In this document: positions 16,195-59,480 of the stretch, in pieces
How positions within the stretch are numbered: the stretch's first letter is position 1
How the letters are laid out: every line of letters starts with the position of its first letter
Source: Lates calcarifer
Lineage: Eukaryota > Chordata > Actinopteri > Centropomidae
NCBI RefSeq assembly: GCF_001640805.2
Contig: NC_066833.1
Span: 976,757-1,040,756, forward strand
Reading direction: 5' to 3'
Length of the DNA: 64,000 bases
Program-made: the position numbers and the translations under genes
The notes under the pieces: generated by a model
Database searches by the model: none
What the model was told of the DNA's origin: nothing
The model's input: the letters and a program-made list of their open reading frames with translations, nothing else

Positions 16195-18915
16195 TAGGGA
16201 TGCACCGATACCGGTATCGGGTCCGATACCCGATACTGGTGTTTTCCGATTGTAGCCCAGATGTTAAAAAAAAAGCGATTAGATGAGAGAAAGAAGAGAG
16301 AATATTTATTTTCTTATTTTTATTTGTTTACATCGGCAAAGTCTAAAATCTCCCATTGCATTTGAATGCACCGCTCAGTTCACATGATCCCACGTGAAGC
16401 CCTCAACAGCCAATCAGAGGCTACCTTCACCACGTTCAGCTCGTGAGGTGAAGTGCCGGCGCATCGTTCTCCCGGTCTTTTTCTTATCTCAGCCACGGGA
16501 GTGAGGGCAGCTTCTTGCTTAACAGACCGAGAAAAGGAGAGAAAGCCGAGTTAAACTGTGGAAAGAGGAAAAAGAAAGCCAGCGCACTTACCCACTGGAA
16601 GTCCGGAGCCGAGTGACTACACGAAGGAGACGAGTCGCGTCGGCTAACCACTTAGCTTCCATCCGAAGAGCCGCTGCAGCTCCGACATCAACGTGCTTGG
16701 CTTTGAAATACAGAGCAACGGTGAGAAACGTGTCTATTTAGCTGCTCTGATGCTATTTCTCAGTGTGCTGAAGGAGAGCAGTGGTGGTATTAAAGGTTAT
16801 GAGAGTAAAATGATATTTTATTTTGTATTATGCAAACTACTGAACGAATTTATTTCATTTCAATGTGAGTCTAAAGTTATTTAGAGGGTAATTTTTGGTG
16901 CAGGTTCTCTCGCATTAGTAGGCCTATAGTGTTGGAGTAATTAAGCACACTTCTTTGATACCTCTAAAACAAACTCAATATGCGTATTATGTTATTTGTA
17001 CATGATTTTGACATGGTTATGATATATATTTTGAATGTAAATGGTTACTTACCATAAATATTATTGAAATACTGTTCACATGAACATGTAAATATGTGAG
17101 CACTTGAATGGTTAGTTCTCATATTTGATACACTTGATTGTTGAATGTTGTACAACTAAACTAAAAACTGAAGCTTTGAGATTTGATAAGATTGAAGATT
17201 AACATATGAGGTTTGATGCAATATATTGATTTTTGGCATCTAAACCTTTAGTGATGCATCTGAGAATAGAATGTAAATTATATGACCTTGTCTATAGGTC
17301 AGGTTTTTTCGAGGACGAAAATCCGAGGACCAGGACGAGATTCCGGTCGTGACAGATGGCGAGCCAACCAATTTGAGGAAGAATCACCACAAAGGAGATA
17401 CACAGGCACACACTCACCCACATACACTCACATTACACTCCATGGACCATTAAGATCAGGTGCACCTGCAACAACTTTTATTTCATAAGTGCACACTATT
17501 CTTTTAATCTTGATAATTGGGGTCATTCATGTATGGTTTTGTACAAATTGAACATTTTTCTTTGTTCATTGTAAAAATACAAGAGTGGCTACTCAACAGT
17601 TATTTCAGTGCCTGACTCATTGCTGCTCAACACATTGGCTCCTTACGAATTTGGTGTCTTGTGATTCTGGCCAAGGTCTAATTATTAGTCCAAGTTGTTG
17701 TTATACTGTAATTCACTTTTATATCACTAAAATTGGTTACGCGATACCACAGCCCGATACCACTTTATGGCAGCGTGATGTTCACTTGGGCGATCAGGTG
17801 CTAATGGAGAGCTAGGAGGAGCAATGTCGGTGGTATGGAGGTATTTCAAAGTGGATGATGGTGACTAAAGTAAAGCAGACTGCAAATTATGCTCTGCAAA
17901 GCTGTCAAGAAGAGGGACGAAAGCGATTACTTTTAACACAAGCAATCTGATAAAACATCCAAAAAACCAACACGACGCCGAGTTCAAAGCGTTTGCTAAT
18001 AATGGCAAACAGCAACAACCAACTTTGCAGCAAACTCTGGAGAAGAGGGAGAAGATTTTAAGAGACAACCCATGCACAGTGAAAATAACAGAGGCTCTGA
18101 CCCAGTACATTGCTCTTGATGACCAGCCATTGTTGGTTGTTGATAATATGGGATTTAGACATCTTCTCAACATACTAGAGCTGAGGTATGAGATCCCTAG
18201 CCGACACCACATCACTGACACAGTGTTGCCAAAGTTACACGACTTTGTGAAGAGGCACATCTGCAGCCTGTTGCAAGACATTTCGGCCCTCAGCTTCACC
18301 ACTGATATTTGGACGAGCAGCGTTAGCCCAGTGTCCCTCATCAGTTTAACTGCACAGCAGATTGACGAGGATTTTACTTCGCGAAGAGTAGTCCTGCATG
18401 CAAAACCATTTAGGGGTTCGCACACCAGCCAAGCCATTGCAGGTGTGTTTGATGACATGCTTCAGGCATGGGGGGGTCCCTAAAAGTTCTGTTCATGTTG
18501 TGCTACGTGATAATGCGAAAAAACATGATCAAAGCCATGAGTGACGCTGGACTCCCGAGCCTGCCATGTGTTGCACACACCCTCCAGCTGGCTGTTAATG
18601 AGGGGCTTTTAGCACAGAGGAGCGTGGCTGATGCGGAAAATAGTTGGACATTTTAAACATTCCGCCTTAGCCTACTCCTGCCTTGAAGATATTCTGTTTG
18701 TTAAAAAAAGATGCAGTTGAATGCTAAAATGTCATTAACAGTACTTTAACAGTACTTCTATTTGAGTAAAATGTGTGAAATGTCAGTCACAGCAATTTCT
18801 TACAGCCAGAGAATTAAACAATATTTGATGAAAATAAAACACATTTCCAAGTAAATGTACGAAGTGTAATGGCATTAATAAGTACTCGTATCAGTACTCG
18901 GTATCGGCAAGTACT
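16195..18915 (+). mobile_element. ZBED-type hAT transposon, 3' end lost
   Basis: The left end TAGGGATGCACCGATACC, followed by GGTATCGGGTCCGATACCCG, is a terminal repeat of a known vertebrate hAT lineage. A GC-rich leader (16380-16730) and a decayed transposase (17824-18660) follow. The subterminal right-hand motif AGTACTCGGTATCGGCAAGT lies at 18894-18913. The expected closing end (inverse of TAGGGATGCACCGAT) is absent, so the right end is truncated. Confidence 0.8.
17824..18660 (+). pseudogene. hAT transposase with BED zinc finger, inactivated
   Basis: ATG at 17824 opens with MSVVWRYFKVDDGD. A TAA follows at 17866-17868 and the same frame continues to 18483. The BED finger shows CKLC and a downstream HPKNQH, the C-x2-C and H-x4-H pattern. 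DNA-binding and catalytic-core text follows (SFTTDIWTS, FRGSHT). In a run of G at 18470-18475 the frame shifts. The next frame carries DAGLPSLPCVAHTLQLAVN, a strongly conserved hAT core block, before coding ends near 18655. The large helical insertion and C-terminal dimerisation region are missing. One stop, one frameshift and a 3' deletion make it non-functional. Confidence 0.85.
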
Positions 18916-22190: not shown

Positions 22191-22604
22191 AGAACTGGTT
22201 TGTGAATTGGCTCAAGCAGTTTCTATTACATCACCATGGGGCCGTTTTCAGGCAGTGTCTCTAACTTAGTGTCTTTTTCTCTTGTGTTTTCCTCACACAG
22301 GAACACCTTAGTTAACTGCACACAGTTGACATAGGTAAGTATGAGCCTCCAGTTTTCTTTCTGAGTTAACATTTTAGGCTTTCATGTGTCTTTCTCACAG
22401 GATCTCTGGAGCTCAGCCAGAGTGACTGTTGGATTCTTGGTCACCTTTCTTACCAAGGCCCTTCTCCCCTGACTACTCAGTTTGGCCATGCAGCCAGCTG
22501 TAGGAAGAGTACTGATTGTTCAAAACCTCTTTGGGGATTATGCCTTACTTGTCACACCATAGGGGAAAAAAATATACTGAAAGCATTATAAAAAAAACTG
22601 GGTA

Positions 22605-26407: not shown

Positions 26408-27675
26408 CCACACTGTCCAAATTATTATGCATATACTGTTTTTGTTCATTCAACAATTATATTGTAATATGGATTTTAGTAAACAAAATTACCAATGATG
26501 ACAATGGCATTTTTTTTCAAGTTTCAAAACACTCAACAATTTCTAAAGGACTGAAACAGAAATCTTATAAATTTTTTTGCATTAGGAGTAATGTTTTTCA
26601 AATCAAAGCTATTTCAATCAAAAACATCTTTACAGATCAAGTTACATATTAACATAGGAGCCCTTTGATATCACCTTAATAACTCTCTCATCCATTGAAG
26701 TTGTAAGTCCATGTATAGTTTCTGCCTGTATTTCCTTTGAGGATGCCAGAATTGTCTCCCAAAGTAGCTGTTTTGAGATAAACTGCCGTCCTCAATGGTA
26801 CTTTTTGCAGCATGGGATGGTGCATTGTCTTGCATGAAAATGATTTCACCTTCAGGCACCTTAAAGGGGCCTACCAACTCACTCCCTATGATTCCAGCCC
26901 AAAACATCACTCCACCACCTCCTTGCTCACATTGCAGCCTTATTGGGACATGGTGGCCATCCACCAACCATCTAGAACTCCATCCATCTGGACCATCCAG
27001 TGTAGCACAGCATTCATCAGTGAATAAAACTGTTTGAAAATTAGTCTTTATATATTTCTGAGCCCACTGCAATCGTTTGTGGGCATTGGTTAAGGGTGGC
27101 TGAAATGCAGCTTTACACACATCAGCAAGCCTCTGGAGGATCCTGCATCGAGAGGCTCTTGGGACTCCAGAGGCACCAGCAGCTTCAAATACCTGTTTGC
27201 TACTCATCAGTGGATTTTTCACAGCTGCCCTCATAATACAATGAATTTGCCTTACAAAAACTTTCCTTAATATGCTTTTATCTGAATGAACCCGTCTGGG
27301 CTCTGAATCACACACACTACACTCACAGTACAATGATCTTTCTTAATTTTTTGTGAAATATAAATATATATATAATAAATAAATTACCTTTTGCAAGGTA
27401 CTGCACTACTTCACGCTTTTCATCTGCAGAAAGATCTTTCTTTTTCTCCATATTGCATGAAACCTGTGACTTGCTTAATAATGTGGAACAACCTCCTAGT
27501 TATCCCTTTAATTAGGCTCACACGGCAATCTAATTACCAAACCTGTCTGAGATTGATGTCAGTGATGTAAACTGACAGAAGATGCAGCACAACTGCTAAC
27601 TTTAATTGAACAACAAAAAATCTAATATTTGTTTGATTGAAATCGTATTTGCATAATATTTTAACTAACTGGGGT
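26408..27675 (-). mobile_element. Tc1/mariner-like transposon carrying a decayed transposase
   Basis: Left end near 26410 reads CACTGTCCAAATTATTATGC. The inverse of the right end near 27651-27675 reads CAGTTAGTTAAAATATTATG, a plausible but diverged terminal repeat pair. The transposase lies between on the minus strand. Boundaries are approximate and target TA bases are not clear. Confidence 0.75.
26671..27452 (-). pseudogene. Mariner/Tc1-like transposase, long but inactivated
   Basis: An ATG at 27452 starts MEKKKDLSADEKREVVQYLA. After an AT-rich break at about 27345-27395, a 220-codon frame runs from 27333. It contains KQVFEAAGASGVPRASRCRI (second helix-turn-helix region), TVLFTDECCATLDGPDGW (first catalytic Asp), GGGGVMFWAGI and IIFMQDNAPSHAAK (second catalytic Asp). 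The third catalytic acidic residue and the C-terminus are lost; the frame ends in unrelated text. The AT-rich break begins GTAATTT and ends TTAAG, so it could be a mini-intron or simply an insertion. Confidence 0.85.
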
Positions 27676-31710: not shown

Positions 31711-32673
31711 TTTAAATTTAGTGTTAATTAACAAATGTTAGCACTATAAGAAGCTAAATTAAGATGGTGAAGGTGGTAAACATATTCATCAGCAAATTAG
31801 CATTGTCATTGTAAGCATTTATCATTTCCCTCAAAGCACCACCCTCTGGGATTTGATAGCAGTAGAAAAAAGTGCCTGTGGCATAGAAGAGTAAAACTTG
31901 TAAAATGAAAAAAAGTTTTACAACTTCAAACAGAATTATGTGTACCTGTTGAACTCAGTGACAGTACCAATGTTAGGTTTGTCCCTACATTCAGCAAGAC
32001 TGCTAATTAGTACATTCTGTTTAAGAATGTGGATCTGGCAGTTGGTGAAATGATCAGCATGCTGATCCTTACCTCAGGATGTGTTGGCATGCAGGACTGG
32101 CAGAGTAAACCAAGTTTAATCAGTCAAATGTGACCAGCAAGCCAAGAGGGAAGGAGACAGCACCTTACACAGGGACAGGGTGGACATCATTTCTGTTATT
32201 TTTCAAGAGGCTGCTATACCAGAAGAGTGTCAAGACAGCTCAATTAGTCTCTCTCTCCACCATCAGTGTATTTGACGCAGATCTGATCAAAAGAAGATTT
32301 TGAGCTGCTATTTAAGCTGAAATTAGAATTACATCAGTGTTTTTGGTCAGATCCTAGCAAATTTAAATAGCATGCACTATTTTTATTGCCTTTAATGAGA
32401 ATCTATTTATTGTGTTTTCATCAATTGTTTTCTTTGACAGTATGTACTGTGCATGGATGCAAGTATCAGTAGTGCAGTAGAGTAGTAACCAACATCTATA
32501 CGTATGGAAGCAAGTTATAGCTGTGATATTTTCTGATATTTTAGAAGCAACTGAGTACTCCTTGTAAAAAAAAAAAATCAGTCTTAAAAACTGTGAAATT
32601 CTAGCATGAGGATGCCAGAAAAAAACATGTTAATATGCGGTAGGATACTGTCATTTTCAAAAATTATAAAATA
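31711..32673. other. Intergenic, no feature recognised
   Basis: No gene or repeat end recognised before the Tc1 left end. Confidence 0.5.
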
Positions 32674-32838
32674 ACAGTTACTGGTTGCAAAGTATATGAA
32701 CCCTTTAGAATTTTCTTTCATTCTTCATATATATCACATAAAACATCATCAGATTTTCTTGCAAGTCCTAAAAGTAGATTAAGAGAATCCAATTAACAAA
32801 AGAGCCAAAAATATTACACTTGATCATTATTTATGTAT
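32674..32838 (+). mobile_element. Left end of a Tc1-like transposon, cut by endogenous retrovirus 1
   Basis: Text such as TATGAACCCTTTAGAATTTT, ACATCATCAGATTTTCTTGC and AAGTCCTAAAAGTAGATTAA is the long terminal repeat of a common fish Tc1-like family. It stops where the retroviral LTR begins and resumes after the provirus at 39648 with TTTATTTATTGAGGAAAATG, which is the expected continuation. Confidence 0.8.
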
Positions 32839-33203
32839 TGGAAATTCTCAAATGATTCATGATAATTGTGATTTATTAATGATCTGTATTAATAATCTGT
32901 ACTTGTACAATTGTGCCTTATAAAATATCATATGCTCAGTACTTTTCCACATCAAAAAGCTCACAGGGCACCTCGCCCCATCAAGGACGGGGCCTGATAC
33001 AGGGTTGCATAGCTGTGTAATCTCTGACGCCTTTCTCTCAGAGCTGCACTGTTGTGTAGTCTTCAGAAGATGTTCTCCTTTTCATCTCCGGACATAACCT
33101 TGTTTCTTTTCCATTTAACCTGTAATCTATTGTACTCGGTACTCATTGTGTATCTCATGCTTGAGGAGTACAGTAGGTCCGTTTGCAAATGTAAGAATTA
33201 AAC
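32839..33203 (+). repeat. 5' LTR of endogenous retrovirus 1, truncated in U5
   Basis: Begins TGGAAATTCTC and matches the 3' LTR up to ATTAAAC at 33203, then diverges. Contains a TATAAAA-like box near 32920. The last roughly 54 bases present in the 3' LTR, and any tRNA primer-binding site, are missing. Confidence 0.9.
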
Positions 33204-33434
33204 AAACAAAAAATTGAGAGAGTGTAAAAGAGTAAAATTGAATTGAAAACTGAATGATGAAATCCAAGGTCCCTACAACCACCTCAGAAATAATAAATTC
33301 TAAAATTCTTAAAATAAAAAATAAAAAAATTAGTTAAAAAAACAAATTCTTAAATAATAATAATAATCGAGTAAGAGAAGAAAATAATAATACAAAAATA
33401 ATAGTAGTACTAAAGGTGCAATATTAAAGATCGA

Positions 33435-34574
33435 TTGGGTTCCAGAAGATTCAAGTCTATGATCATCAAATATGGAAAATCAAGTGTTGGCCAACTTAAG
33501 GTATGGGTTGAAGAGTGTGGTTTCCCATGTACAGGAAGTTTTAGCCTAAATCAGCTACAGTTATTAAGAACCAAATTAGAAGAAAAAGAAAAATTCAGTA
33601 AAGCTACACAAAAGGGGAAAAGAAAAGTGTTTAAAGCAGACTGGGAAGCATTTGCATGTTGGTTTAAGGAAGCACAAATCAGGGACAGAAAACAAAAGGC
33701 AGGGACAGAATCACTAATCCCTATGTCTCAGTGCCTCAGTCCCTGATCTGGACTCGGCTCCACCCAGAAGATGGCCAGCCATGGAGGCCAGTGCTCCCGA
33801 CCTGAAGGTGAAGAACGACCCCGACATGGATGCAGCTGCTGCAGCTTCAGCAGCCGCCACAGCCCCAGCTACAACACCACCTCAGCCTGAACAACGACCA
33901 CAGGTGCCAGCAGGGGACAGGACCTCCCAGTTAGTTTATAAACCATGGACATTCAACAACATGAAGGAAGCCGCTTCTCAACTCCCCGTAGTCGAAAACG
34001 GGGGAGCAGAATATGTGAAACAGCTCCTGATTTTTTGCCAACAGTTCAGACCCACAACCACTGAACTGCGATGTCTACTCCTGGCCCAGATGGGGAACAA
34101 GTGGTCCAAGGTAGCTGGAGACTTTACAGCAGGAGAACTCAGACTGGCTGACGCAGCCTGGGAAAATGATGAGAATGCTGCGTACAGACAGGCAGTGGCT
34201 GAGCTCTGTGACAGGATCAGGGCAGCTTTCCCTCTGAGTTTGGACATGGGCAAAATCTCAGCCTGTAGATTTGAGAAATTGAGACTGTATTTGATTATCT
34301 CACCAGACTCACAGAGGTCCACACAACACACAGTGGCCCCCAAAGATCAGTTCACATGGGGGGTGGGGGGGCACCCAATAACCCCCTGGGGAGCGCACCT
34401 GCGAGACCGTTATGTCATCAAACCAGAGAAAGGTTCCTGGATGAGAGAGGACATGGGGGCAGAGGAAGAGGAAGGGGCTGTGGGAGATCAGATGCCTGCT
34501 TCAGGTGTGGCAAGACAGGTCACTGGGCCAAAGAGTGTCCTGTCAACGAGGACAACGAGGACAAGGCAGATTGA
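33435..34574 (+). pseudogene. gag remnant of endogenous retrovirus 1
   Basis: A matrix-like frame (33435-33746; its first codon is TTG, so the true start is uncertain) is charged and ends in a stop. A second frame opens at ATG 33781 and carries alanine/proline-rich text, then capsid-like text (LVYKPWTFNNMKEAASQLP, AAYRQAVAELCDRIRAAFP). A frameshift near 34285 moves the reading to a third frame. That frame has an arginine/glycine-rich stretch and one CCHC zinc knuckle, CFRCGKTGHWAKEC, ending at 34574. Gag normally builds the virion core and binds genomic RNA; here three frames are needed, so no full product is possible. Confidence 0.85.
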
Positions 34575-34869
34575 CTACCGGTGGAGCCGGGGCCAGTGAG
34601 GGATGCATCTGGTTCTGACGCAGAGACCAAGAGACCAAAATCACCAAACAACAGATAAGTGAAAATCCACACACACAAACACACACACACACACACGAGA
34701 ATTAGAGTTAGAGACATACAACGCACAACAGCTCCTTTTGCAAGCCATGCAACATCTTGAGTCCACACAAAAAACAAATGAAGGGAAAATTTCTGAGTTT
34801 TACACAAAATACACACACGATGCATTCAGAAAAATGCCAAAACATACAATCCCAGCCCAAGGCCAAAAC

Positions 34870-37110
34870 ATCTTCTTTTTTTTTTTTTTTTTGGTAGATT
34901 CTGGAATCTAAATCTAAATGGTACAGGCAAGGCTAGGATAAACAGGAATTTCAACTTTGACTGGTTATAATGGTTTGTTGATCACTCTGCTGTATCAGTT
35001 ACTCTGTCTAACCCATCATGTCAAATTTTATTCAAGGTGCCACACTCCGATGCCGATCTGATCCCGATCCGATCCCCATATTTCATTGGTCAAACCCAAA
35101 AAACAGGAGGTGGGAGGATTTAGGACCTTGGATAAAAACATGTGACGAGGCCTCAGGGTGGAACGCAACATCAGACCCTGGTATTGACTTCTATTCACAT
35201 TTAAAGGTGCACCAGAAAAGGTTTTCTACTGTAGTGACTGCGGTAAGAACTGTTGAGCTCATTCAAAAAAAAAGGATCCATTTGATTTGTATCACAAATG
35301 TTACAGTTTTGTAAACAACATTTCGAAACTCCTGAGTTAAATCAGGTGCCATCTTGTTTGTGGGTGAAACACAAATATGATGTAGGATTGATCAAAGGTG
35401 CCAAACCAATTGTGATCACACCAAAATTCTTGTACAGACCATGCAAAAATCAGTATCGATTGAAAAGAAAGAAGCAGTTGATGGCATTAAACCAGTGTTT
35501 GAATCTCTCTTTAAAGCTGGAGTGATTATCCCATGTGGAAAATCTCGAACACCAAATTTTCCTGTGAAAAAAAAATCTAGATATTCTGGACAGCCTGATG
35601 AATGGAGATTTGTTCAGGTTCTGCAAGCAGTAAATGCAGCAGTCCACACGAACACTCCAAATGTTCCAAATTCACACTTGCCTTGCTAAATCATTTAGCT
35701 AATAATGGTCACAAAGCCAGTGTGTCTAAATTACAATTTGTCTTGGGGAAAGAAAAAGCATATTTTGTTGGGTCATGTGATCACAGCAGAGGGCAAACCC
35801 TCTCACCCAAACATAGTGAAGCCATCCAAAACATTCCACAACCAGATACAATAAAACAGGTTATGAGTTTTTAGGCAATGACGTCATACTGCAGACAGTG
35901 GATCCCTAACTACGCTGAAATCAAGGCACCATTGGCTGCAATTGCTCATGGGAAAGGCCTCACAGCCAGAGATAAGGTAACATGGACACCGGAAACAGAG
36001 AAAGCTTTCGTTAACTTGAAATTGGCTTTGCAATCTCCTGCCACTCTGAATGATTGCACAACTTCATCCACACAGACTATTGACAAATGGGGGGAGGAAT
36101 ACATGACTTACACAAGAACATGGGGGACGACAGAGACCTGTAGTTTACTTTTCAACTTTTTAACTGCCTCAGAGAGAGAGAGCATTAATAGCATCACGTG
36201 ACATTGTGGGGTATGCTGACCTCACCTTGCTGGTTCCTCATGCAGGTTTAAATGATTTTGCTCGAACAGAAAACCTCTCATCTGTTAGTAATAGCAAGGC
36301 TGCTCAGATACAACACAGTTTTGCTTGGAATGTGTAACATCACTGTCAAAAGATGTAATGTTTTAACATTGCTACTCTTCTCCCAACACCAGATGATGGA
36401 CAACCACATGACTGTGTGGCAGTGATAACGGAAACCTGCTGTCCCAGATCTGACCTGTGGGACACACCTTTGCAGAACGCTGACCTGGAACTGTTTGTGG
36501 ACGGTTCAGCCTCAGGAGACCCAGCAACTGGTAAAAACCAAGCGGGCTATGTTGTAACAACACAACATTGACACTATTTTGGCTGAATCACTCCCCTCAA
36601 ATTACTCTAAACTTGGCAAAACAGTCAATATCTACACAGACAGTAGATATGTATGGAGAGTGGTGCATGATTTTGGCCGCCTTTGGGCCAGTAACAATTT
36701 CTTAACATCCATTGGGAAAACCCATTGCCCACCATACTTTGGTTGCTGATCTCCTTGATGCTGTCTTCCTTCCCACACAGGTTGCTATCTACAAATGTGA
36801 AGTATACACTAACCATCATGATTTTGTTTCACAGGTGAATGCCAGAGCGGATCCTATGGCAAAAGCAGTGCAAACAAAAACTGACTTTTCATTGCTTTAC
36901 CGCTTTCTAACTCATCTTCAATACTCACAGCTGATTTTCAGAAATTGCAGGCCAGAAACACCCAGGAAGATAGACTCGCTTGGAAGAAAGCAGGCTGCTC
37001 TTTCACCGACAAAGTCAAAGGAAACCTTGTTTACCCAAATACCTGTTTCATCATTATGTGAAGTTGACACATGGCAAGAACCATGTGTCAAAAGGAGGTA
37101 TGATGACTGA
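34870..37110 (+). pseudogene. Protease/pol remnant of endogenous retrovirus 1
   Basis: Blocks in order: protease start LVDSG near 34890; a spacer block with RRWEDLGPWI at 35018-35270; reverse transcriptase fingers (GVIIPCGKS, EWRFVQ) at 35441-35650. A junction then skips the palm with its catalytic aspartates. The remainder has thumb/connection text (SYCRQWIPNYAEIKAPLAAI, VTWTPETEKAF) at 35700-36060, RNase H blocks (ELFVDGSASG near 36490, IYTDSRYVW near 36635), and short uncertain text to 37110. Nearly all of the integrase is missing. Frequent frame changes and stops show long-standing decay. Confidence 0.85.
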
Positions 37111-38069
37111 AAGTCAAAGGAATTCTCTAACTTCTCTAAAAATTTCATTTAAAATTAACAGAAACCAATGGAAAAAGAGAAAACAAGAACACCCTTAGTC
37201 CTTTTAAGATCCTCTTTGCACAGAGACAAATAATAAATAAACTCTGGCAAGCCATTGCTTCATCTGGCTGCACTTGTACATGCCCTTCCTCCTATTAGGA
37301 CAGAGAAAGACAGAGACAGAGAGACAGAAACATTTGACCCCAAACTTTACATCGATAAATGGATTTGGGATGATTTGTTTTTAGCTTTAGAAGATGTATC
37401 CAAAGGTAGATGAGAGAAATTTGGGATTAAAAGTTAATTCCAATCAGTCCTTATAGGTTAAAAACAAAAAATGAACATCTGCAATTGCAAGATAACTGGG
37501 CTCTAGTCAAGGAAGATTGTGTGGTAAGCTTCAGAACAACTTCTTAGGACTAACACAGGGCACAGGAACATACTCTATGCACATTATGTACATGAATTAA
37601 AGTATTACAAATATAAACAAGAAATACCATAAATTAGCCAAAAATACACTCACCAGAGTATATATAATGAACAGCATGTGCAAAGATACTCTTAGTGCTG
37701 TGTCTCAGCTTTTTTTCACAGTGTTAAGCAGTGTTTTTTGCCATGTTAACCAGTATTCACATTTAGTATTTCTTTTCCTGCTTCCTTGCAGTCTGCTGTT
37801 AGCATACATGAAACTACTCAGCATAAAACGAGATTGTGTAAAACATAACATATTTCTCATTTCATTCTCATATTTCTCTCACTGGAAACGAGTCCCTGAG
37901 CCCAGAGAGAGAGAACACCTCATCAAGCGTGCATTAGCATCAGTAAGTGAGCCAACACCTTCCCCCGCGTTGTGTTTGCGAGGAAGAGAGGGGTGTGGAT
38001 TGTCAATAGGGCCATACGTTTCTCAAACTCACGAAGAGGCAGCACACTGATTACGGGGGTGGGTTTAGG

Positions 38070-39009
38070 TCACGCTGCTGATGCAATGACGCCTATCCAG
38101 TGGCGCTGGAGGGGTGGAAGATGCAGAGGAATGAAGAGTACATTCCTGCTCGCTGTCATCATCGTCCTGCCACTGCTTCTGTCTGAAGTTACAGAACAGG
38201 GTCACAGCGATTCCAACAGCAGCCACACTGAGAAACCATCATGTAGATTAAAGAGGGAACTGTTACCTGAGTTCACTCGGAACCCAACAAAGCCTGAAGA
38301 AAACTCATGGTATGCAGTAGTCATGGCTACAGCCAGGAAGATTACCAATGAGAGCTGCTACGTCTGCACACAACTTCCTCAAGGGGTTGGTGCTTCAATA
38401 CCTGTGACACTATGGCCACTGAATGTTTCAGAGGTCCAAGGGGTAATGGTAGCCTTCATCCTGAGTGCTCCCTATGCAGAGAGAGTTGTGGGAGACCTGA
38501 CTGAGAACTTGAAGAAGTGCAACATCAGCATTGTGAACTATAGAAGGTCAACTGCTAGATTCTGGAACATGACACATGTTATTTGGGAAAGTTTGTACTC
38601 TCTATCACCATACCCTCCACACTCACCCATTTTCATGCTAATAGTGTTCATTATGTTCTCTACACAGAGAAAAATGAGACACTGAAAGAATTCCATGTTG
38701 TTTCACATCTTAATGATTTGCAGCATGAAGAGAGAAGCCAAGACTCTGACTTCAACCACCAAGGGAGAATGAGAAAGTGACACTAATGAAACTTTTTGAT
38801 ACCTATGTTTGTATTCTTGGTAGTTATTTCTGCTTTTACTTCTTGTGCTTATCTGTGCAAGCTTTCATCAAGCTTTGATTGCTTCTGCAGTTAGAAACTT
38901 CGTGGGACAGTTCCTAGATCTGTCTCAGAGTGACCTCTCTCACAGGTCTCTGGACTGGGTCCCACCATTTCAGTTTGATGACACTGAAGTTGTTTGGAAG
39001 AAACAATGA
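38070..39009 (+). pseudogene. env remnant of endogenous retrovirus 1
   Basis: A frame ending at 38685 carries a hydrophobic leader near 38133-38180, several N-glycosylation sequons and a surface-subunit motif NESCYVCTQLP, then loses similarity. After a large deletion, a different frame at about 38820-39009 has a leucine-rich membrane-spanning stretch followed by a tail of about 40 residues and a stop. The receptor-binding remainder, cleavage site, fusion peptide and heptad region are absent. Env normally mediates entry; this copy cannot. Confidence 0.75.
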
Positions 39010-39228
39010 TGCATTTAATGAGAAAAAGAAAATCAACTCTGATTTACTATATTTTTCATAATGATTTGAGCTAATGATTAGAATAAAAGAGAATGTTATG
39101 ATTTGATATTCTTCAATAGTAATTTTCATACTAATTTTGAATAATTTGCATACAAAAATTTTCTTCAATGCTATTTTTAATCAACTTGGTAATGTACTCT
39201 TGTTTGAATCATCCTAAGTAAATCTTAA

Positions 39229-39647
39229 TGGAAATTCTCAAATGATTCATGATAATTGTGATTTATTAATGATCTGTATTAATAATCTGTACTTGTACAA
39301 TTGTGCCTTATAAAATATCATATGCTTAGTACTTTTCCACATCAATAAGCTCACAGGGCACCTCGCCCCATCAAGGACGGGGCCTGATACAGGGTTGCAT
39401 AGCTGTGTAATCTCTGACGCCTTTCTCTCAGAGCTGCACTGTTGTGTAGTCTTCAGAAGATGTTTTTCTTTTCGTCTCCGGACATAACCTTGTTTCTTTT
39501 CCATTTAATCTGTAATCTATTGTACTCGGTACTCATTGTGCGTCTCATGCTTGAGGAGTACAGTGGATCCGTTTGCAAATGTAAAAATTAAACCTACAGA
39601 AAGACAACCATTGACTGTGCTTTACTGAACAGAAGATTCCCATGACA
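39229..39647 (+). repeat. 3' LTR of endogenous retrovirus 1
   Basis: 419 bases from TGGAAATTC to CCCATGACA, giving the usual TG...CA ends. No convincing polypurine tract precedes it, consistent with decay of the upstream region. Confidence 0.85.
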
Positions 39648-39796
39648 TTTATTTATTGAGGAAAATGAAGCAGTATTACATATCTGTAAGTGGCAAAAGT
39701 ATGTGAATGTCTAGGTTTAGCAGTTAAATTGAAGGTGCAAATAGAGTCAGGTGTTCTCAGTCAATTGGATAACAATCAGGTGTGACTGGATGCCCT

Positions 39797-40231
39797 GTGT
39801 AGGAGCCAGTAATAAAAGTAATTGAGTTGGTTTTTTTTTTTGTTTTTTTTTTTTTTTGCTAATGCTAAAATTTTGTTTGCCATTTATGTTTGTTGTTGTT
39901 TGCCATTTATGTTTGTTATGAAGTTATTGAAGATTATTGTATTTGTTGTTTGAGAACTCTAAATTACTGCTTCTTTTTTTTTGCTGCGCTTGAACCAACG
40001 GGCATGCTCACTTGTGTGTTTAGGGTATAAAGTGTGTAGCTCGGAAGACGGTGTGTCTAGATCGCCAGCGATAGGAGAGTCTACAGAGAGATGAGGTTTG
40101 TTGACCGTAACTTGCAAATTAGAGAAATATAACGACCAAGTAAGATATTTTCAACCTGGATCCTGTCTGAGAGAAGCTCTGGGAATTGTTTTGATGGAAA
40201 TAGAAGACTTGGACGTACAGGAAAGTTTGCA
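39797..40231. mobile_element. Unidentified insertion inside the Tc1-like element
   Basis: About 430 bases break the Tc1 text between GATGCCCTGT and AGTTTGGACTCCACC. It contains long T runs (39831-39857), a duplicated 22-23-base unit TTTGCCATTTATGTTTGTT (39878-39922), and a TATAAAG box at 40025 followed by a CpG-bearing segment. Limits are approximate; it resembles a promoter-bearing piece of a retroelement but is not recognised. Confidence 0.5.
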
Positions 40232-40960
40232 GTTTGGACTCCACCAATCCATAGTCAGACAGACATTGAATACAAATGGAGGAAGTTCAGTACCATTGTT
40301 ACCCTCCCTAGGAGTAGTTGACCAACAAAGATCATGACAAGAGCAATGCGTTTAATACTGTAGTTGATGAGGTCACAAAGGGACCTAAGGTAACTTCTTA
40401 GCAACTAAAGGCCTCTCTCACATTGGCTAATGTTAATGATCATAAGTCCACCATCAGGAGTAGACTGAACAACAGTGGTGGGTATGGCAGGGTTGCAAAG
40501 AGAAAGGCATTGCTCTCCAAAAAGAACATTGCTGCCTGTCTGCACTTTGGTAAAGATCACATGGACAAGCCAGAAGGCTATTGGAAAAATGTTTTGTGTA
40601 TGGATTAAACTAAAATATAACTTTTTGGTTAAATGAGAAGCATTATGTCTGGAGAAAGGAAAACACTACATTCCAACATAAGAGCCTTATCCCATCTGTG
40701 AAACATAGTGGTGGGCCAGGACATCTGGGCCAGGACTGCTTGCTATCATTGATGGAACAATTAATTCTGAATTATACCAGTGGATTATAGAGGAAAGTGT
40801 CAGGACATCTGTTCTTGAACTGCTTCTCAAGTGAGACAAGGACCCTAAGCACACAAGTTGTTCTACCAAAGTATGGAAGAATAAAGTTAATGTTTTAGAA
40901 TGGCCAAGTTGAAGTCCAGACCTGAATCCAATGTTGTGGAAGAACCTGAGGTGAGCAGTT
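40232..40960 (+). pseudogene. Decayed Tc1-like transposase
   Basis: Blocks in several frames: DNA-binding region text near 40232-40330, ALLSKKNIAACLHFGKDHMD at 40510-40570, EGYWKNVLCMD near 40575-40605 (where the family has a catalytic D-E strand), DPKHTS-like text near 40840, and the PDLNPM block near 40918-40935. Stops interrupt nearly every block. Confidence 0.75.
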
Positions 40961-41183
40961 CATGTGAAGAAACCCACCAGTTACTGGAAAAGTTTGGTTG
41001 CAGTTATTGCTGCACAAGGGGGTCATGTCAGATATTCAAAGCAAAGGTTACTTATGCCACTCACAGATATGTAATATTGGATCATTTTCCTCAAAGAATA
41101 AATGATCAAGTATACTATTTTTATCTTATTTGAATGGATTCTCTTTATTTACTCATAGAACTTATGAAGAAATATAGAAAATA

Positions 41184-41320
41184 AATGAATGATTATTCAG
41201 CATGCATTTTGTCTTTCGTGATTTAATAGAGGTTGGATCAAATGATAGAGTACAATGATGGGACATAAGAGAGTCAATCAGTATCAGTGCTGAGAGGACA
41301 AGCTCATGGACCATGCATTA
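41184..41320 (-). repeat. Probable 3' LTR remnant of endogenous retrovirus 2
   Basis: Lies directly after the polypurine tract on the minus strand and contains ATTAAA, a weak polyadenylation signal. Only about 135 bases, so truncated if it is an LTR. No matching 5' copy was recognised. Confidence 0.35.
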
Positions 41321-41332
41321 TCTCCCCCTTTG
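41321..41332 (-). promoter_or_regulatory. Polypurine tract of endogenous retrovirus 2
   Basis: The minus strand reads CAAAGGGGGAGA just beyond env. Purine runs of this type prime plus-strand synthesis and mark the start of the 3' LTR in retroviruses. Confidence 0.65.
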
Positions 41333-41616
41333 ACCATTCCAACAAACCAAAAGGAGGAAAGTAAAAAGGATTTAAGCCTCAAATTATCAAATATCAAAAG
41401 GTTACCAAAAATGTCATAGGTGTATCATCATCTGAATCAAAGTCAGGGTGGAATCCATCCAGTGTTGTTGGGAATAAATGTACAGCATGTTCACCAAACA
41501 TCACACAAACACCACCTTTCTCAGCAAACAGCCAGTCTAGTGCCAGCCTGTTTTGCCATGTCATTTTTTAAGTGGCATGCACTTACCTCACCTCACCTAA
41601 GGCTTGAAGGGCATCT

Positions 41617-43483
41617 TTACTGAAATTGGCTAATCGCTACTGATGGTAGTACACATTTTTGTTGATCGTACACCACCAATAGATAGTCGATTCGAAACCA
41701 CCTGCTATGTGATTTCAGGCTTTGAATTCTGCTCTGTACCCCAATAGCATCTATGTATACACCTGGGTCGTGCAGGATGTCTCGTTTGCTTCGATGTCCT
41801 GAGTCTTGGGATATTGGGCCTAAGAAATTTCCGCTGTGGTCTGCGGATATTATCATAAGAGGGGTGTTCAACACAGCCATACCACAGAGCCCTGTGGCCC
41901 ATGGTGGTAACTGTGCATATGCTGTTTCACCACAGATGTAATAAATACCAGGTATCAATTTGTCAATTTGGTGGTTGGTTTCCGCATTCCTGCAAGTATA
42001 GTTTTACTTTGTGAGGGAACCAGCATCCCCATCCCCTTATTAGTCATTAACCTGACACATGAAGGAAAAGTGAAATTAGATGATGGTACATCAGGGAGTC
42101 ATTTGCTGCGTGTATGCCTGTGTTTTGAACTTCCTCAACCAATCTACGACAGTCTGCCCCATCAGTAGTGTTCCATGGCAGATAAGACCCGCTATCAATC
42201 TTCCAAAGAACTGTCCACCCCGTCTGGAGGTAGACATGCCATGCACCTGTTCCATTTAATGGCTGTGGAATTATATGAGGCTGGCCCCCACCCATGCCCT
42301 GGCACAACCAGAGCAACTGTGATTTGTGTGTTGCCTGTGACGGAGCGGCTCCGTCACTGACGGCGGGGAGCGCACACACGTGTACTGGCATACATACACG
42401 CACACACTTAAAACTTCTGATCCATCCCGTTTTCCCCAGTTAACAAACTTTCCAATCAGTCAGTCATGTTCCCATGGAAGTAGAGCGACCAGGGGTGCAC
42501 ACTTGGTAGTTCTATGTCTCTTTAAACATACATTTAAACATGTTACTCACCGGCGGCATATCAGTCGTTCCGGTTGCGGAGCATGAGGCGGCAAAACGGG
42601 GGCATAGCATTTGCCGCTATTATATGCCATGTTCTCGCGGGGTTTCGGGGTCATGTGACCAATCTGATATATATATTTCTGGTCTTCGTTTATTTTATCA
42701 TGAAATTTTCCAGTCCTGCATTGTGGATGAAAGGAACTGCATTTATAAAAACACAGTTAATTTTTGTTTAATTTATATTTGTGTTGTGGAGCCTTTAGAG
42801 GCATTGTTAGGGGGAAAAAATGTGTTTTTCTATTAATTCTGGAGCCTGGAAGGAGGGGCTATGGGTTTATAAGGGGGAAGGGAGTGCTGGTTTGGTTACA
42901 GAGGAGGTAACAACTAGTGGCTCATGCTTACTGAGTTACTGAAGAACTCTATTCAGCTTAATTTTTTCTTGATGTTTTTTTTGCATTGTTTCTTTGGTTG
43001 TTACTAATTTTCGCACTGTAAAAAAGTTATCACTATTTGCACTTTGGGAGGCCGGCAAAATAAAGCAAATAAGAACACCATATTATCTTCTGACTACGCC
43101 TGTGAGTTTTTCCTGGGATTTTTCTTTTTTTTCTTTCCCTTAACTCCACCATCTGTGGATTTTGGGGAGGTTTAAGAAAGAACCCCGTGACATTGCCATG
43201 CAGCTCCTCGAATGTATTTTCATCAAGCATTGTTCTGTTGGAAGTCATGCCTAAATCTAGTTGTGTTGTGTGTCTTTGTATTGTGCATCTCAGAATGGTG
43301 TCTAAAGATGATGGGAAAAACTACAACTATTGCAATGAAGAATAAGACAAGTAGCGAGCCCCTGAGGCCACACCATCCCAGCATACGGAATGGGTGCCAT
43401 GGTCTTGTGAATCTTGGTTCCATCACTGATCCTCGGTGGTGACACAGTTGTCTACTGCCATCACTTAGGTGGTAGCTTGACAC
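41617..43483 (-). pseudogene. env remnant of endogenous retrovirus 2, split by a solo LTR
   Basis: The first part (43483 down to 43193) has a hydrophobic leader GSLLVLFFIAIVVVFPIIF and frame breaks. After the 857-bp LTR insertion, 42335-42047 continues surface-subunit-like text with sequons. 41958-41617 has GIYYICGETAYAQLPPWATG, resembling the end of a fish retroviral surface subunit, then a basic RSKR that looks like a furin cleavage site. The fusion and membrane-anchor regions are not seen. Stops and frameshifts throughout. Confidence 0.75.
42336..43192 (+). mobile_element. Solo LTR (857 bp) with 5-bp target duplication, inside env of endogenous retrovirus 2
   Basis: Starts TGTGACGGAGCGG and ends CCCCGTGACA, giving near-inverse TG...CA ends. 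TTGCC flanks both sides (42331-42335 and 43193-43197). The plus strand has a TATA box (GTTTATAAGG near 42866) and an AATAAA near 43061. A solo LTR forms when the two LTRs of an element recombine and delete the interior. The 5-bp duplication fits Ty3-like or retroviral elements; the family was not identified. Confidence 0.9.
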
Positions 43484-44714
43484 GCTACTTGTTGGATGAG
43501 GGCACTATTTTCACGCCTTGCTCGTTGTGTGGGGTTGTTTCTTCAGACAGTATGCCAATACTGTCACCCTCTTCTTCTCGTACTGGTGGTCAAAACCCAA
43601 GTAGTGTGAAACCTCAGTCAATGCTTGATTTACAAGCCCTGGTCTGTTATCACTGCTGATAACGGCTGGAATTCCCCATCTGGGAATGATTTCAGTAAGC
43701 AGTGCTTTTGCCACAGCACTGGTGTCTTGCTTAGCAGAAGGAGAAGGTCATTGGCATTCAAATAGCCCCTGCTTTGTTGTTTGCTGTACAAATCATACAT
43801 TTTTTTTGCAAACCTCCTGTGCAAAGACTGAAAACCCCTGTGTATACCATGCAGAGTTGACAGCAGCACACATTCCCCCTTTGCCCACATGGTCTCTTCT
43901 GTGAGCCAGTTTGGCATAACGGTGGAAGAAAGCATGTGGCAAACCAGGTTTACCATCAGGACCAATCCACAGTGAATCAGCATATGCAGCACCAGATGCA
44001 ACACCAAATGCATAACATGAGTAACGTGTATATGTTGACAGTTTTCCCCTTAGCCAGCTTACAGGGCTCTGTCAGGGTGATTGTTCAGCTGCCTGTGCAG
44101 AGTAGTGTGAAGGTAATTTACCACTGAGCAAAGTTTCATGTTGTGTGACATGAACAGCAACAGCAAAGCCCACCATACCTTCACCAGTGTCTGGTGAATG
44201 GGAAGCTGATCGATCCACAAAAAGTTCCGGCTCAGCATTTTCGAGAGTGTCAGCAAGGTCAGGCCTGGGAGTGCATACCTGATTTATTGAAGCAACACAA
44301 TTATGAGGATCACCATCTGCTGGGGTAGGAAACAAAGTAGATGGGTTAAGAACTGTACATCTCTTCACTCTAATATTGGGCATGTCCAAGAGTGTTGTGT
44401 GATACTAGATACCATCCATGAGTGTGAGATCACTGTATCCCGCTATGTCACATGATGCAAGCACAGCTTTCTCTTTCTCTAGCTACAGCACAGAGACACA
44501 GGGGGAGACCAGCAGCAACAGGCTCAGGTTTGGCAGAAAAATAAGCAGCAGGTTTTAGTTTTTCCCCATGTTTCTGAGTCAGAACAGATGTCATGAAACT
44601 GAAAATGAGTCTTTTAGGTCAGTAAAGGCTTTGTCAGCGTCAGGAGTCCAGGTCAGTTTGTCATGTGCATATTTTTACCATGGACCATGGAAGAGAAGGG
44701 TGCTTCTCTCTCTA

Positions 44715-45012
44715 AATAGTTTGGCTCAGGAGATAGAGCACAAGGTCGCCCACCAATCAGAAGGTCGGTGGTTCCATTCCCGGCTCCTCCAGTCCGCATG
44801 CCGAAGTATCCCTGGGCAAGATACTGAACCCCAAATTGCCTTCGATGTGTGTCATTGGTGCGCAAATGTGCGTGTCTGTGTTAGAAAGCACATTGTAGAG
44901 AACAAGTGCTGTATGAATGTGTGTGCAAATGGGTCAATGTGATCTGTAGTGTGAAGCGCTTTGAGTGGTTGAAAAGACTAGAAAAGCGCTATATAAGTAC
45001 AGGCCATTTACA
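44715..45012 (+). mobile_element. tRNA-derived SINE inserted in pol of endogenous retrovirus 2
   Basis: The tRNA-like head has an A box (TTGGCTCAGGAGATAGAGC) and a B box (GGTGGTTCCATTCCC). It is followed by CCTGGGCAAGATACTGAACC and the tail AAAAGCGCTATATAAGTA, typical of a widespread percomorph SINE family. It breaks the pol text between thumb and connection regions. Target duplication was not clear. Confidence 0.8.
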
Positions 45013-45212
45013 TTTGCTTACAGTATGACCTCATACCCAAGAAACTTAACATCTGTTTCTTGGTTGATGGCTTTGTCACAGATAGTATGGCTTGTACACA
45101 ACTGGGAGAGAGGGATTTGCCCTCAGCTGTGATCACATGTCCCAGATATGTTACACATGTTTGAGAAAAATGCAACTTAGCCAGACTCACATTGTGACCA
45201 TGATGATAGGGG

Positions 45213-45222
45213 TATATATAGC

Positions 45223-45250
<28 letters not shown>
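45213..45250. repeat. TA microsatellite
   Basis: A TA run with one GC interruption, followed by AGAGAGAG. It falls inside the decayed pol of endogenous retrovirus 2. Confidence 0.9.
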
Positions 45251-45253
<3 letters not shown>

Positions 45254-46934
45254 GAGAGATATTTTAGCAACTCAATGGTATCAGATTTACATGCTTTCTG
45301 TGGTGGGCAGCAGATCATGAGGTCATTACATACAGTAACAAAACAGAGCCATTGGGGAGATGCAGGTTTAACAAATCATTGCTCAAAGCTCTGTGGAAAA
45401 CCCCTGGCGATTCTGAGTAATCCACTGGGCAGCAGGTAAATGTATGGCTTTTACCATTAAATGAAAAGCCAAACCAGTACTGGCTGTCTTTGTACACTGG
45501 AATGGAGAAAAATGCATTGGCCAAATCTACAAATGTATGGCACTGGGTGGAATCAAGGACAAAATGGTGTGTGGGGTAAACTCTGGTGCTTGTGGGTGCA
45601 CTGCTGCATTTACTGCTTGGAGGTCTTGAACAAAACGCCATTCTGTCGGCTGGCCAGGATCACAAACCTTTTTGACAGGAAAAATTGGAGTGTGCATAGG
45701 AGAGTCATCACAGGGAATGACAACTCCAGCCTGTAACAACAAATCAAACAGAGGTTTAATGCCTTCAGTGGCCTTGTGTTGCAACGGGTATTGTTTCAAA
45801 CACAGGCGGAAATCAGATTTTGGGTGAATTACCAGAGGTGTAGTGTTTTTTTATTATGCCGACATCATATGTGTGTTAAGCCTATAGGTCAGATGGCACC
45901 TTAAATAATTCAGCCATGTCGATAGTTGTTCGTTGAACCATGGTGTGTTAATCCTTCAGAGGGAATGAGCTCAACTGTTCTCCTAACCAAAGCTGTAGAT
46001 GTAAATGTTGTTTTATATACATCACCCTTTCTGCTGTACAGTGTTCTGGGATCCACATATATGGTCACAAAGTCAGTCAGCTGCATCTGGGCATGCACCC
46101 ACACTCCCAAATCCTCCCACTGCCATCCATCTGGCTTGGCAAGCGAAACATGTGGACATGGACCATCATACAGCTCATGTTGGGCATGGGAGAGAGACAC
46201 AGAAGCAGGAGCAGAAAATATGTTGCAATGTTAATCTTTCCACTTTCTCAACCTGTCTGTACCATACTTCCTCAAAAGCTTTATCAGGACCTTCTGACAC
46301 ATATTCAGTACAGTGTAATGAATCTGTGTGCATGTAACTGGATGCCTGAGTGCTGTGTGTGTGCAAAGTGAGTGAGCTGTGACGCCAAAGATGGAACAGC
46401 AGACGGCACCAATGACCACTCATAGGCATACAGTGGTGTGTCCGGGCTATATTTCACTATTTGTGTGTTTACAGGCAGTGTAGCTATCTTTACTCTGTGT
46501 GGATGTGAAGTGAGGACAATGCCAAAATGACACATCAAATCTCTCCCCATTAAATTAACAGGGCAATGTTATGATAGGAGGAAATAATGCCTGTTTGTGG
46601 CGTTATCCAGTATGCGTGATAGAGGTGTGGTGTATGGTTCATTTACAGGTATGCCACCAGCACCTATTATCTGCCACTCAATTTCTGTGTTTTGGGTAAC
46701 ACTGATGATTTTAGGACTGACAATGTGGCCCCTGAGTCTACTAAAAAGACAACAGGGGTGCCTGCTACAATTAAGAGTGAGCTCAGGCAGTTTCCTAAAT
46801 TCTTCATGATTATCACTATACATTGCAAATGTAGGTTGTAAAACTTTGTCAGCGTTAACTTTAGCCTCAACATACTTTATGGCTGTTATTACTGTACCTT
46901 TTCATAGTCAGATTGACATGGTGACTGTGTGTAA

Positions 46935-46956
46935 GTGTGTGTGTGTGTGTGTGTGT
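46935..46956. repeat. GT/CA microsatellite
   Basis: Eleven GT units between the protease and gag remnants of endogenous retrovirus 2. Confidence 0.9.
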
Positions 46957-47047
46957 AGCTGGCTGGTCCTCTCTCGGGGTCCTGCTTTCAGTCAGACTTG
47001 TGACGTGGCTGGCTGTCACTTTTGCCTCTGTTTGGACAGACTTTGCA

Positions 47048-47870
47048 TCAGTGTCCTATTTGGCTGCAGTTGTGGCAAACATCTGGGTCATAGGCGTGTC
47101 TGTGGTCCTCCTCACTATCCCTGCTGCACCCTTTTCCACCTCTGCCCCAGCCTCTGCCTCGGTGACTGTTACATTTGTTGTCATGTCTCCTTAGTGCCCT
47201 GTCTTGGTACCTGCTTAACTGAACCTGCTTGATCTTCTTCTGGTGGCTGTTCTTCTTGGCTTGCTCTGCGGCTCTCAGGTGGTCCACCGCATGCTTAGCA
47301 TGTTGCAATATAGTGTTCAGGTTATCTGTTTTCCACGCAATACAGATTTTCCTCACTATTTCAGCAATGAAATGAATGAGTCCCAGAAAATGCTGATTTC
47401 AGTTTTGTATGGCCCCCGGGGTGAGGCCCCCATGACACCTCTGTGTGGGCCACTGTGGAGGTCGAACGCCGCTGTGAGCCTGTGTCAGAAAAGCACTGCA
47501 GGTCTCATCTGCTCCCTGCAGGCATGTCCATCCTTACCAGGAAGGCCAGTTGGCAGGTGCTAAGTAGTTCAGCGACAGCGGCTCTGTAGAAAGCGTTGTT
47601 ATCATGGTCATAATCAGGATGTATGAGCCTGCACCCGACAATAGTGGGAGTAAAGAACACAGATATCTTGAGGAAGTCATGTTTGAGCAATTTGCCCGTT
47701 AGTCATCTCGTCTCCACCGTTGTGGGCCCGTATTCTCTGACGAACTGCTCAAATTGCGTCTGGAACAGGTCCAGATTGTCGACTGGGCTGGTCACATGGG
47801 CTATGGCCTCTAGGATGTCTTGCTCCAACCATGGCCTGAACACCAGCATTCTATTCTATTCTATTTCACA
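47048..47870 (-). pseudogene. gag remnant of endogenous retrovirus 2
   Basis: Minus strand: capsid-like text in 47840-47505 includes PDYDHDNNAFYRAAVAELL, parallel to ENDENAAYRQAVAEL in retrovirus 1. Further down, 47356-47048 carries a basic region, an RGRGWGRGGKG stretch and the first half of a CCHC zinc knuckle, CHNCSQIGH. The frames do not join, and the matrix region is missing or unrecognisable. Confidence 0.8.
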
Positions 47871-48185
47871 TTTAAGGTAGGATAGCTACATGGAAAAAAC
47901 TGAATGTACTTCCTCCCTGGTCTTGAGCGCAGTCAGACCTAACAGGAAGAGATAAAAGTAACAAGGATGGCATCTTTGCCAGGCACACTAATTATGACGC
48001 ATATAAAGTATCAGAATAAGCCATGACAATGGGAGTTAAGATGGACTACCTGGCTACCTAACAGTCAGCAAGAGTTACATAGAGTCATAAACACATCTGC
48101 AACAAGAGATAGGAAACAATTATTCAGCTCTTACACTGTGGTATTAGCCTACCTTAATCATGAGAATGGTAAATTTAGCTCCTAC

Positions 48186-48211
48186 ATTCACAAACTTTCA
48201 AGCACCACTGT
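48186..48211 (+). mobile_element. Terminal fragment of a Tc1-like transposon
   Basis: TTCACAAACTTTCAAGCACC followed by ACTG is the outermost part of the terminal repeat of the Tc1-like family seen at 32674 and 39653. It is probably the missing right end of that element, displaced by endogenous retrovirus 2. Confidence 0.6.
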
Positions 48212-49214
48212 CGCTGTTATTTTACAGTTCCAGTTCTTCTCTACTAAGGAAATTGTTGTCATTTAATGAAAAATTGAATTTAAATATTACATAAAATATA
48301 ATACTACTTATAAAATAGTAACCACCTTTAAATGACAGACATATGATGTTAAGATTATCACCTAAAGAATAATGCAAAAACATCATATCATGATTTGTAT
48401 TTTTTTTTTTTAAAAACATGATACCCTAGTATGATAAAATAGTTCCTGTACAGACATTATTAGCGATTTAAAGCAACCATTTATGTATAACAAGAAAATG
48501 TATTGATGTATGTTCTTTCTTTTCATTTCTGAGTAAGTAGAGGAGAATTGGCAATATGATTTAGATCAATGATGTGTTTTGTAAAAGATGAGAGAGAGTA
48601 AGTAAGGGTGAGGGTGAGAGTGACACTGGTGTGGTGTCAGTTGGTGCAGCATTTGAGGTGTTTAAAAATAAACTTGTCCTGAGGCCTACAAACAGGCGTT
48701 GTGGGCTCAGCTGCAGTGCTCTGGGGACAAAATGCCTTTATCTGTGACAGACCACTTTAACAACAATAGACTGGCTGCTAACACCATCTCTTGCACGAAT
48801 ATTCCACTTACTCTGACAAATTGTTGTCAGCAAGGCACAACACAGGTTTGAATCAATGATGTTTGATTTTTACTGCAGATAAGTGAAATGTGGTGTCATA
48901 TCCAGAAGTAAAGAACAATGGCATTTCATGGAGATTATGTTTAAAATGGTAATCGTTGCTGATACAGTAAGGGAGTGTTTCTGGTGATGACCCATGCCAT
49001 GGGCTCAGTTTGCCCCTGACTCTACCATAGGGCTGGCACAACAGGTCAGTGCCAGATGCTAACTAGGGAACACAAGATGTGTGTGTGTTTTCCCATCAAT
49101 CTAATGTGAAACATTTAAAGCTTTTGGAAATCCAAGAGATTGAGCATCTTGTTGCCAAATTTATCAACCTAGACCAAAATTCAGAAATCCTTAATACTCC
49201 TTCTCTGTGTCACA
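48212..49214. other. Intergenic, no feature recognised
   Basis: AT-rich, no gene or repeat end recognised. Confidence 0.5.
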
Positions 49215-53984: not shown

Positions 53985-54305
53985 ACCCCATAGACTCTCA
54001 TTATCTATACTGCTTATCTGTGAAGGATCAGGGGTGGGGGATGGGGGTGGGGTGGAGCCAGCTATCACTGGGCTAGAGCCAGGGTACACCCTGTAACACA
54101 TATGGACAAGCAAACACCAATTAGAGTCACCAATTAACCTAACATGCATGTCTTTGGACTGTGGGAGGTAGCCAGAAGACCCGGAGAGAACGCAGGCACA
54201 GAGAGAACATGCAAACTCCACACAGAAAAGCTCCGGGCAAACCGGGGCTTGAACCCAGAACCTTCTTGCTGTGAGGCAACAGTGCTAAGCACAGCACCAT
54301 TGTTA
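53985..54305 (-). mobile_element. tRNA-derived SINE (minus orientation)
   Basis: Inverse copy of the family at 6441-6812: ATGCATGTCTTTGGACTGTG, GAGAACATGCAAACTCCACA, and a tRNA-like head whose B box is the inverse of GGCTTGAACCC. The tail end (near 53990) reads as TATCTATACTGCTTATCTG. Confidence 0.8.

Positions 54306-58025: not shown

Positions 58026-59480
<1,455 letters not shown>

Follow-up and report, generated by a model that had tools for sequence, protein, structure and literature searches.

Organisation of the locus

A cluster of transposable elements was found at 32674-48212 of a 64,000-nucleotide stretch of Lates calcarifer DNA, referred to here as the window, within which all positions are given. 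The outermost element is a Tc1-like transposon, present in the window as three pieces (32674-32838, about 39648-41199 and 48186-48212) that are consecutive and do not overlap. Provirus 1 (P1), on the + strand, separates the first piece from the second, and provirus 2 (P2), on the - strand, separates the second from the third.

A Tc1-like element in three consecutive pieces

The following features were assigned to the Tc1-like element.

32674..32838, + strand: left terminal inverted repeat, outer part, aligned to the right repeat in reverse complement
39648..39712, + strand: left terminal inverted repeat, inner part with the inner repeated word, from an inverted match and word comparison
39800..40223, + strand: ~420 bp stretch at the expected place of the leader and of transposase residues 1 to ~54
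40224..41035, + strand: transposase broken by frameshifts and stops, in five tblastn pieces and three frames against the relative P0003, with PF01498
41035..41199, + strand: right terminal inverted repeat, inner part up to the P2 junction, from the inverted-repeat alignment
48186..48212, + strand: right terminal inverted repeat, outermost end, starting with the ATTCA that also closes the left side

Comparison of the window with itself gave two inverted matches between the arms of the element on either side of the first insert, 32763-32828 with 41101-41163 and 39646-39701 with 41049-41104 (87.5%). When the flanks were joined over both gaps, the arms formed a single continuous inverted-repeat alignment with a score of 79, whereas none of 200 shuffles exceeded 31.5. 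Terminal inverted repeats were found at both ends: within the limits of the element, the joined arms are identical in 147 and different in 28 of 175 ungapped columns (16% different). The left inner and left outer repeats also resemble one another, as an inner and outer repeated word. By eye, one base of the TA target duplication seems changed on either side. Since the arm similarity runs some bases beyond the ends as set, the exact ends of the element are uncertain; the similarity extends into the presumed flanks at 32660-32674 and 48212-48232 as an inverted shared AT-rich word, which may be chance or part of a longer repeat.

A frame at 40402-40605 matched PF01498 at E=2e-9 in Pfam, identifying a Tc1-type transposase. 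The joined frame pieces had 21 protein relatives, the best with 60% identity across 99% of the query, and this best relative, P0003, is collinear with the locus over its residues 55-366, which occupy 40224-41035. For its N-terminal residues 1-54 no significant match was obtained at 39800-40223, and no second copy of that stretch was found within the window. The stretch is a candidate for an "unknown insert" that the first-pass annotation had mentioned; that annotation gave no positions for this insert, nor for a SINE and a solo LTR that it placed in P2, so that the stretches treated here may differ from those it meant. Its proposal of one Tc1-like element in three consecutive pieces is borne out by the joined alignment, the collinear transposase and the PF01498 match, and neither overlapping pieces nor a foreign origin of 48186-48211 emerged from a check that covered the inverted repeats of the element itself and a transposase relative.

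Searches further afield returned little. A transposase piece had no match in the PDB, and P0003 matched nine plasmid records at less than 60% identity (all five listed were IS630) and none among phages. Related-locus scans gave 5 pattern matches with an RT piece, 35 with a transposase piece and 4 and 1 with P0003, none of them confirmed. Exact-word scans had 0 matches for Tc1 words and Tc1-end words in viral contigs and 0 for the Tc1 end in genome contigs, and no paper with the Tc1 end word was found in the literature.

Other traces of Tc1 transposases occur elsewhere in the window. A 223-codon open frame at 26671-27342 (- strand) has a distant match to Tc1 transposase (24% identity) and no Pfam match, and two further fragments lie at 3713-3991 and 22400-22531 (both - strand).

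P1 retains a pair of LTRs

The features of P1 are listed below.

32839..33203, + strand: 5' LTR, until its match to the 3' LTR fades; compared with 39229-39593
33204..33415, + strand: A-rich stretch at the expected U5 end and primer-binding site, by reading
33718..34599, + strand: gag, an open frame running 293 codons from stop to stop, with two Lates japonicus relatives
35286..37110, + strand: pol remnants, from the match to MMLV RT and the comparison with P2
37951..38685, + strand: env-like open frame of 244 codons, called env by eye only
39229..39647, + strand: 3' LTR, 419 bp, with TG...CA ends placed by eye

The LTR pair was recovered in the self-comparison of the window (32836-33212 / 39226-39602, 96%). 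Of 365 aligned bases 11 differ (3.0%), by 10 transitions and 1 transversion, corresponding to a K2P distance of 0.031. The end of the 5' LTR is absent: its match to the 3' LTR stops at 33203 and is followed by the A-rich stretch, which has no second copy in the window. No primer-binding site was recognised by eye after the 5' LTR, which was read as decay. The exact repeat flanking P1 is the low-complexity TTATTTAT, out of register with the TG start; by eye the flanks read TGTAT and TTTAT.

Both gag relatives are from Lates japonicus, at 64% and 58% identity. Among solved structures the RT piece of P1 best matched MMLV RT (E=2.9e-5), indicating a gamma/epsilon-type RT of which the core is missing. 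Pfam gave no match for ten P1 frames, the env-like frame included.

P2 is a retroviral remnant flanked by ATTCA

P2 is a single feature in our list.

41200..48185, - strand: P2, with RT and integrase by profile and remnants of gag, protease and env by eye, in retroviral order and flanked by ATTCA

RT and integrase were both found in P2, with Pfam matches to RVT_1 (E=1.5e-4) and rve (E=5.6e-5) that each lie below the curated cut-off. The best match of the RT among solved structures was again MMLV RT (E=5.2e-14); another frame in the integrase region had no match in the PDB. BLAST gave no LTR pair at E 0.01. The ends of P2 show a weak match, 48024-47879 with 41417-41295, that reaches neither edge of P2. 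Its score of 26.5 was equalled by 6 of 600 dinucleotide shuffles and by 9 of 516 other stretches of the window, and in 300 plain shuffles the 95% level was 22.5 and the maximum 30.5. This match may be at most a hint of an LTR pair, situated away from both edges, and P2 was filed as an ERV remnant and not as a complete provirus. The two proviruses announced in the first-pass annotation are in this respect unequal: P1 has its LTR pair, and a clear pair is lacking in P2.

The word ATTCA stands at 41195-41199 and at the start of 48186-48212, that is, on both sides of P2 and where the Tc1 similarity breaks. It is one of two 5-mers common to both sides in a 46 by 31 scan, and since such a scan gives 5-mers by chance, the repeat taken alone is weak evidence. 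For all that ATTCA flanks 41200-48185, the two ends of P2 resemble each other weakly at best.

P1 and P2 are related members of different families

All three nucleotide matches between P1 and P2 are in inverted order. At the protein level, the best linked set of BLAST consists of 17 tblastx pieces covering 423 residues with 53.2% identity. These are 17 of 39 tblastx rows, the other 22, which belong to other linked sets, being left out; as a linked set presupposes order, the collinearity of the 17 pieces is partly by construction. In their open RT pieces, P1 and P2 are 59% identical over 68 residues, and BLAST showed no LTR match between the two proviruses. The alignments confirm P1 and P2 as related and inverted relative to each other, and the two share one gene order. 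The kinship claimed in the first-pass annotation extends only to about 53% protein identity, which indicates that P1 and P2 represent different families.

At one gap between neighbouring pieces of the chain, 50 bases of P1 stand opposite 381 of P2, the latter including a 37-base TA repeat. Without that repeat, about 300 bases are absent from P1, near 35660-35709. The RVT_1 match in the P2 frame at 45318-45659 (residues 30-98) falls within the stretch that P1 is missing, so that the missing part of P1 is the RT core.

Candidate inserts within P2

Two stretches of P2 are candidates for later insertions.

44725..45013, + strand: SINE-like insert between the RT and RNase H remnants, from a gap in the P1-P2 chain and a box B
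42540..43079, + strand: solo-LTR-like segment in env, with TGTT...AACA ends and TATA- and AATAAA-like words, by eye

At the first of these, neighbouring pieces of the chain are separated by 289 bases in P2 and by 6 in P1, leaving about 283 extra bases in P2, and the P1-P2 alignment reaches both edges of the stretch. A tRNA-type box B lies at 44770-44783; 0.13 such words are expected in the window and 2 were seen, with a pattern picked after the stretch had been read. A box A was noted by eye. Rfam, with nothing at the gathering cut-off and one chance-level row, and ARAGORN, with 0 tRNA, did not recognise the insert. At 42540-43079 none of the TG...CA pairs was flanked by an exact repeat of at least 4 bases; exact repeats of at least 6 bases lie inside the segment and not at its TG...CA ends. 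For want of a flanking target duplication the segment is termed LTR-like only. Exact-word scans of viral contigs with the SINE words and the LTR-like words gave 0 matches each.

Both stretches might instead be diverged sequence of P2 itself. Such a reading would account for the fact that neither has a second copy in the window and that no exact flanking repeat was found for either (for the SINE-like stretch, of at least 6 bases), and it agrees with the Rfam and ARAGORN results. We consider it unlikely; for the SINE-like stretch, the extra bases bounded by alignment on both sides argue against it, as does the box B, even as a pattern chosen after reading. A SINE-like insert of ~285 bases in P2 pol, with its tRNA-type box B, is taken as confirmed with limits, and the segment in env, probably a solo LTR, was not confirmed as one. 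The SINE and solo LTR described in the first-pass annotation fared differently, the former standing as a SINE-like insert within these limits and the latter going without a flanking duplication.

Assembly of the cluster

The whole is very probably best explained by a Tc1-like element that was hit independently by P1 and P2 and received further inserts, as a passive record of them. A Tc1/mariner element would have inserted near c1ql2 in a teleost genome and then decayed. P1 and P2, as class I-type (gamma/epsilon-like) elements of separate families, would have integrated later and independently into it, P1 into the left inverted repeat on the + strand and P2 into the right inverted repeat on the - strand; the ~420 bp stretch would likewise interrupt the leader. 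P2 would afterwards have taken up the SINE-like insert and probably the solo LTR as well. Ordinary integrase, transposase and LINE-driven reactions could have produced these insertions one after another. Every gene examined is broken or partial, and the locus most likely has no function today.

The divergences support an older age for the Tc1-like element than for P1, as 28 of 175 ungapped positions differ between its arms and 11 of 365 between the LTRs of P1; this agrees with the element having come first and gives no date, the arms of a Tc1 element not necessarily being identical at insertion. The order of events that the first-pass annotation read from the locus is upheld as far as the Tc1-like element is concerned. 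P1 and P2 adjoin side by side, so that their order relative to each other is unreadable. At its deepest the nesting has three levels (Tc1, P2, and SINE or LTR within P2), and the "five layers" of that annotation must be given up, five insertions not being equal to five layers.

Rearrangement of neighbouring repeats, by duplication, inversion or an assembly join, could in principle have brought the cluster together in place of separate insertions into one Tc1, and the inverted orientation of P1 relative to P2 and the lack of a clear LTR pair in P2 would suit such an origin. We regard it as very improbable, because at both inserts the Tc1 inverted-repeat similarity breaks off on one edge and is taken up again on the other. 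A recent inverted duplication is ruled out by the low protein identity of P1 and P2 together with the missing LTR match between them.

The claim of a second insert within the Tc1-like element rests on the 27 bases at 48186-48212, which were tested separately for this reason. If P2 had truncated the right repeat, these bases would not be Tc1 and would match by chance, as their shortness allows. Their score against the left outer end was reached by 20 of 2000 dinucleotide shuffles in one test and 4 of 2000 in another and, for the left outer end alone, by 12 of 4981 random 27-mers; in the joined alignment they were equalled by 15 of 1000 random 27-mers from the window. Against the degenerate right inner repeat they scored only 6.0, a comparison that stands outside the joint test given next. 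Against both left repeats at once, outer and inner, none of 4955 random 27-mers scored as high as these bases, a fair test because the two left repeats resemble each other, and the match starts exactly at the ATTCA junction. We likewise regard a chance match as very improbable.

With two independent insertions into one Tc1-like element as the preferred reading, the chance of a second ERV hitting the same 1.7 kb element is about 3% in post hoc arithmetic for two random insertions in ~50 kb of older sequence. Chance suffices as an explanation, and two ERVs in one Tc1 are a mild coincidence. That class I ERVs of this fish are drawn to Tc1 inverted repeats as landing pads, through chromatin state or DNA bending, is hardly credible, even though each provirus sits in an inverted repeat, one per repeat.

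Comparison with known elements

The locus is real and ordinary in kind, a case of transposons nested in transposons. It shares with Tc1-like transposons of fish and amphibians the PF01498 transposase and the long inverted repeats with an inner and an outer repeated word, and relatives of its transposase occur in Erpetoichthys, Polypterus, hagfish, frogs and piranha; it differs in being a dead copy interrupted by two ERVs and the ~420 bp stretch. P1 and P2 resemble the epsilon-like class I ERVs of teleosts, such as ZFERV, in retroviral gene order and in an RT nearest to MMLV among solved structures. Unlike these, they represent two broken families, P2 having no clear LTR pair. Compared with other nested transposable-element clusters, the locus is alike in having elements inside elements, on three levels, and shows no difference in kind.

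Published reports describe epsilon-like ERVs, along with spuma-related ones, as the main type in ray-finned fish (PMC4977317) and Tc1 as a widespread fish transposon, the DNA transposon with the highest representation among bony fishes of fresh water (PMC7599744), and mention Tc1/mariner repeats for a Lates calcarifer scaffold (PMC4110674). No such locus appears in the titles and abstract openings of the matches listed for Tc1/ERV nesting, fish ERVs and Lates repeats, and literature searches on Tc1 repeats and on fish SINEs yielded nothing. The first-pass annotation had called the arrangement unusual, which holds for the local coincidence and not for its kind, both element types being standard in teleosts. 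The locus is of value as a place where the sequence of insertions in a teleost can be read, and possibly as a presence/absence marker near c1ql2. Its importance would grow only with a genome-wide excess of ERVs in Tc1 repeats, for which a single locus is not enough.

Other features of the window

Pfam was run on 50 frames, 48 of them distinct; 6 had a match and 44 had none. The six matches are RVT_1, rve, PF01498, C1q with collagen, a BED finger and viral glycoprotein L, the last of which was below the cut-off and taken as chance. The c1ql2 frame lies at 58450-59196 (- strand), with C1q and collagen domains at 58453-59196. Among the best 120 of its 1042 relatives, it shares 99% identity over 79% with C1q-like protein 2 of Lates japonicus and 91% over 79% with proteins of Genypterus, Semicossyphus and Ophioblennius, and the rows ranked highest by E-value, which include a cichlid, show 86% over 97-98%. 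These identities point to a host close to Lates.

A 204-codon frame at 17869-18480 (+ strand) gave the weak BED zinc-finger match (20.8 bits, cut-off 20.6) and is perhaps a hAT-type remnant. An inverted pair with 72% identity was seen at 6454-6645 and 54121-54303, the latter carrying a tRNA-type box B and perhaps belonging to another SINE family. Diverged direct repeats are clustered at 12030-12831, with up to 82% identity over 302 bases.
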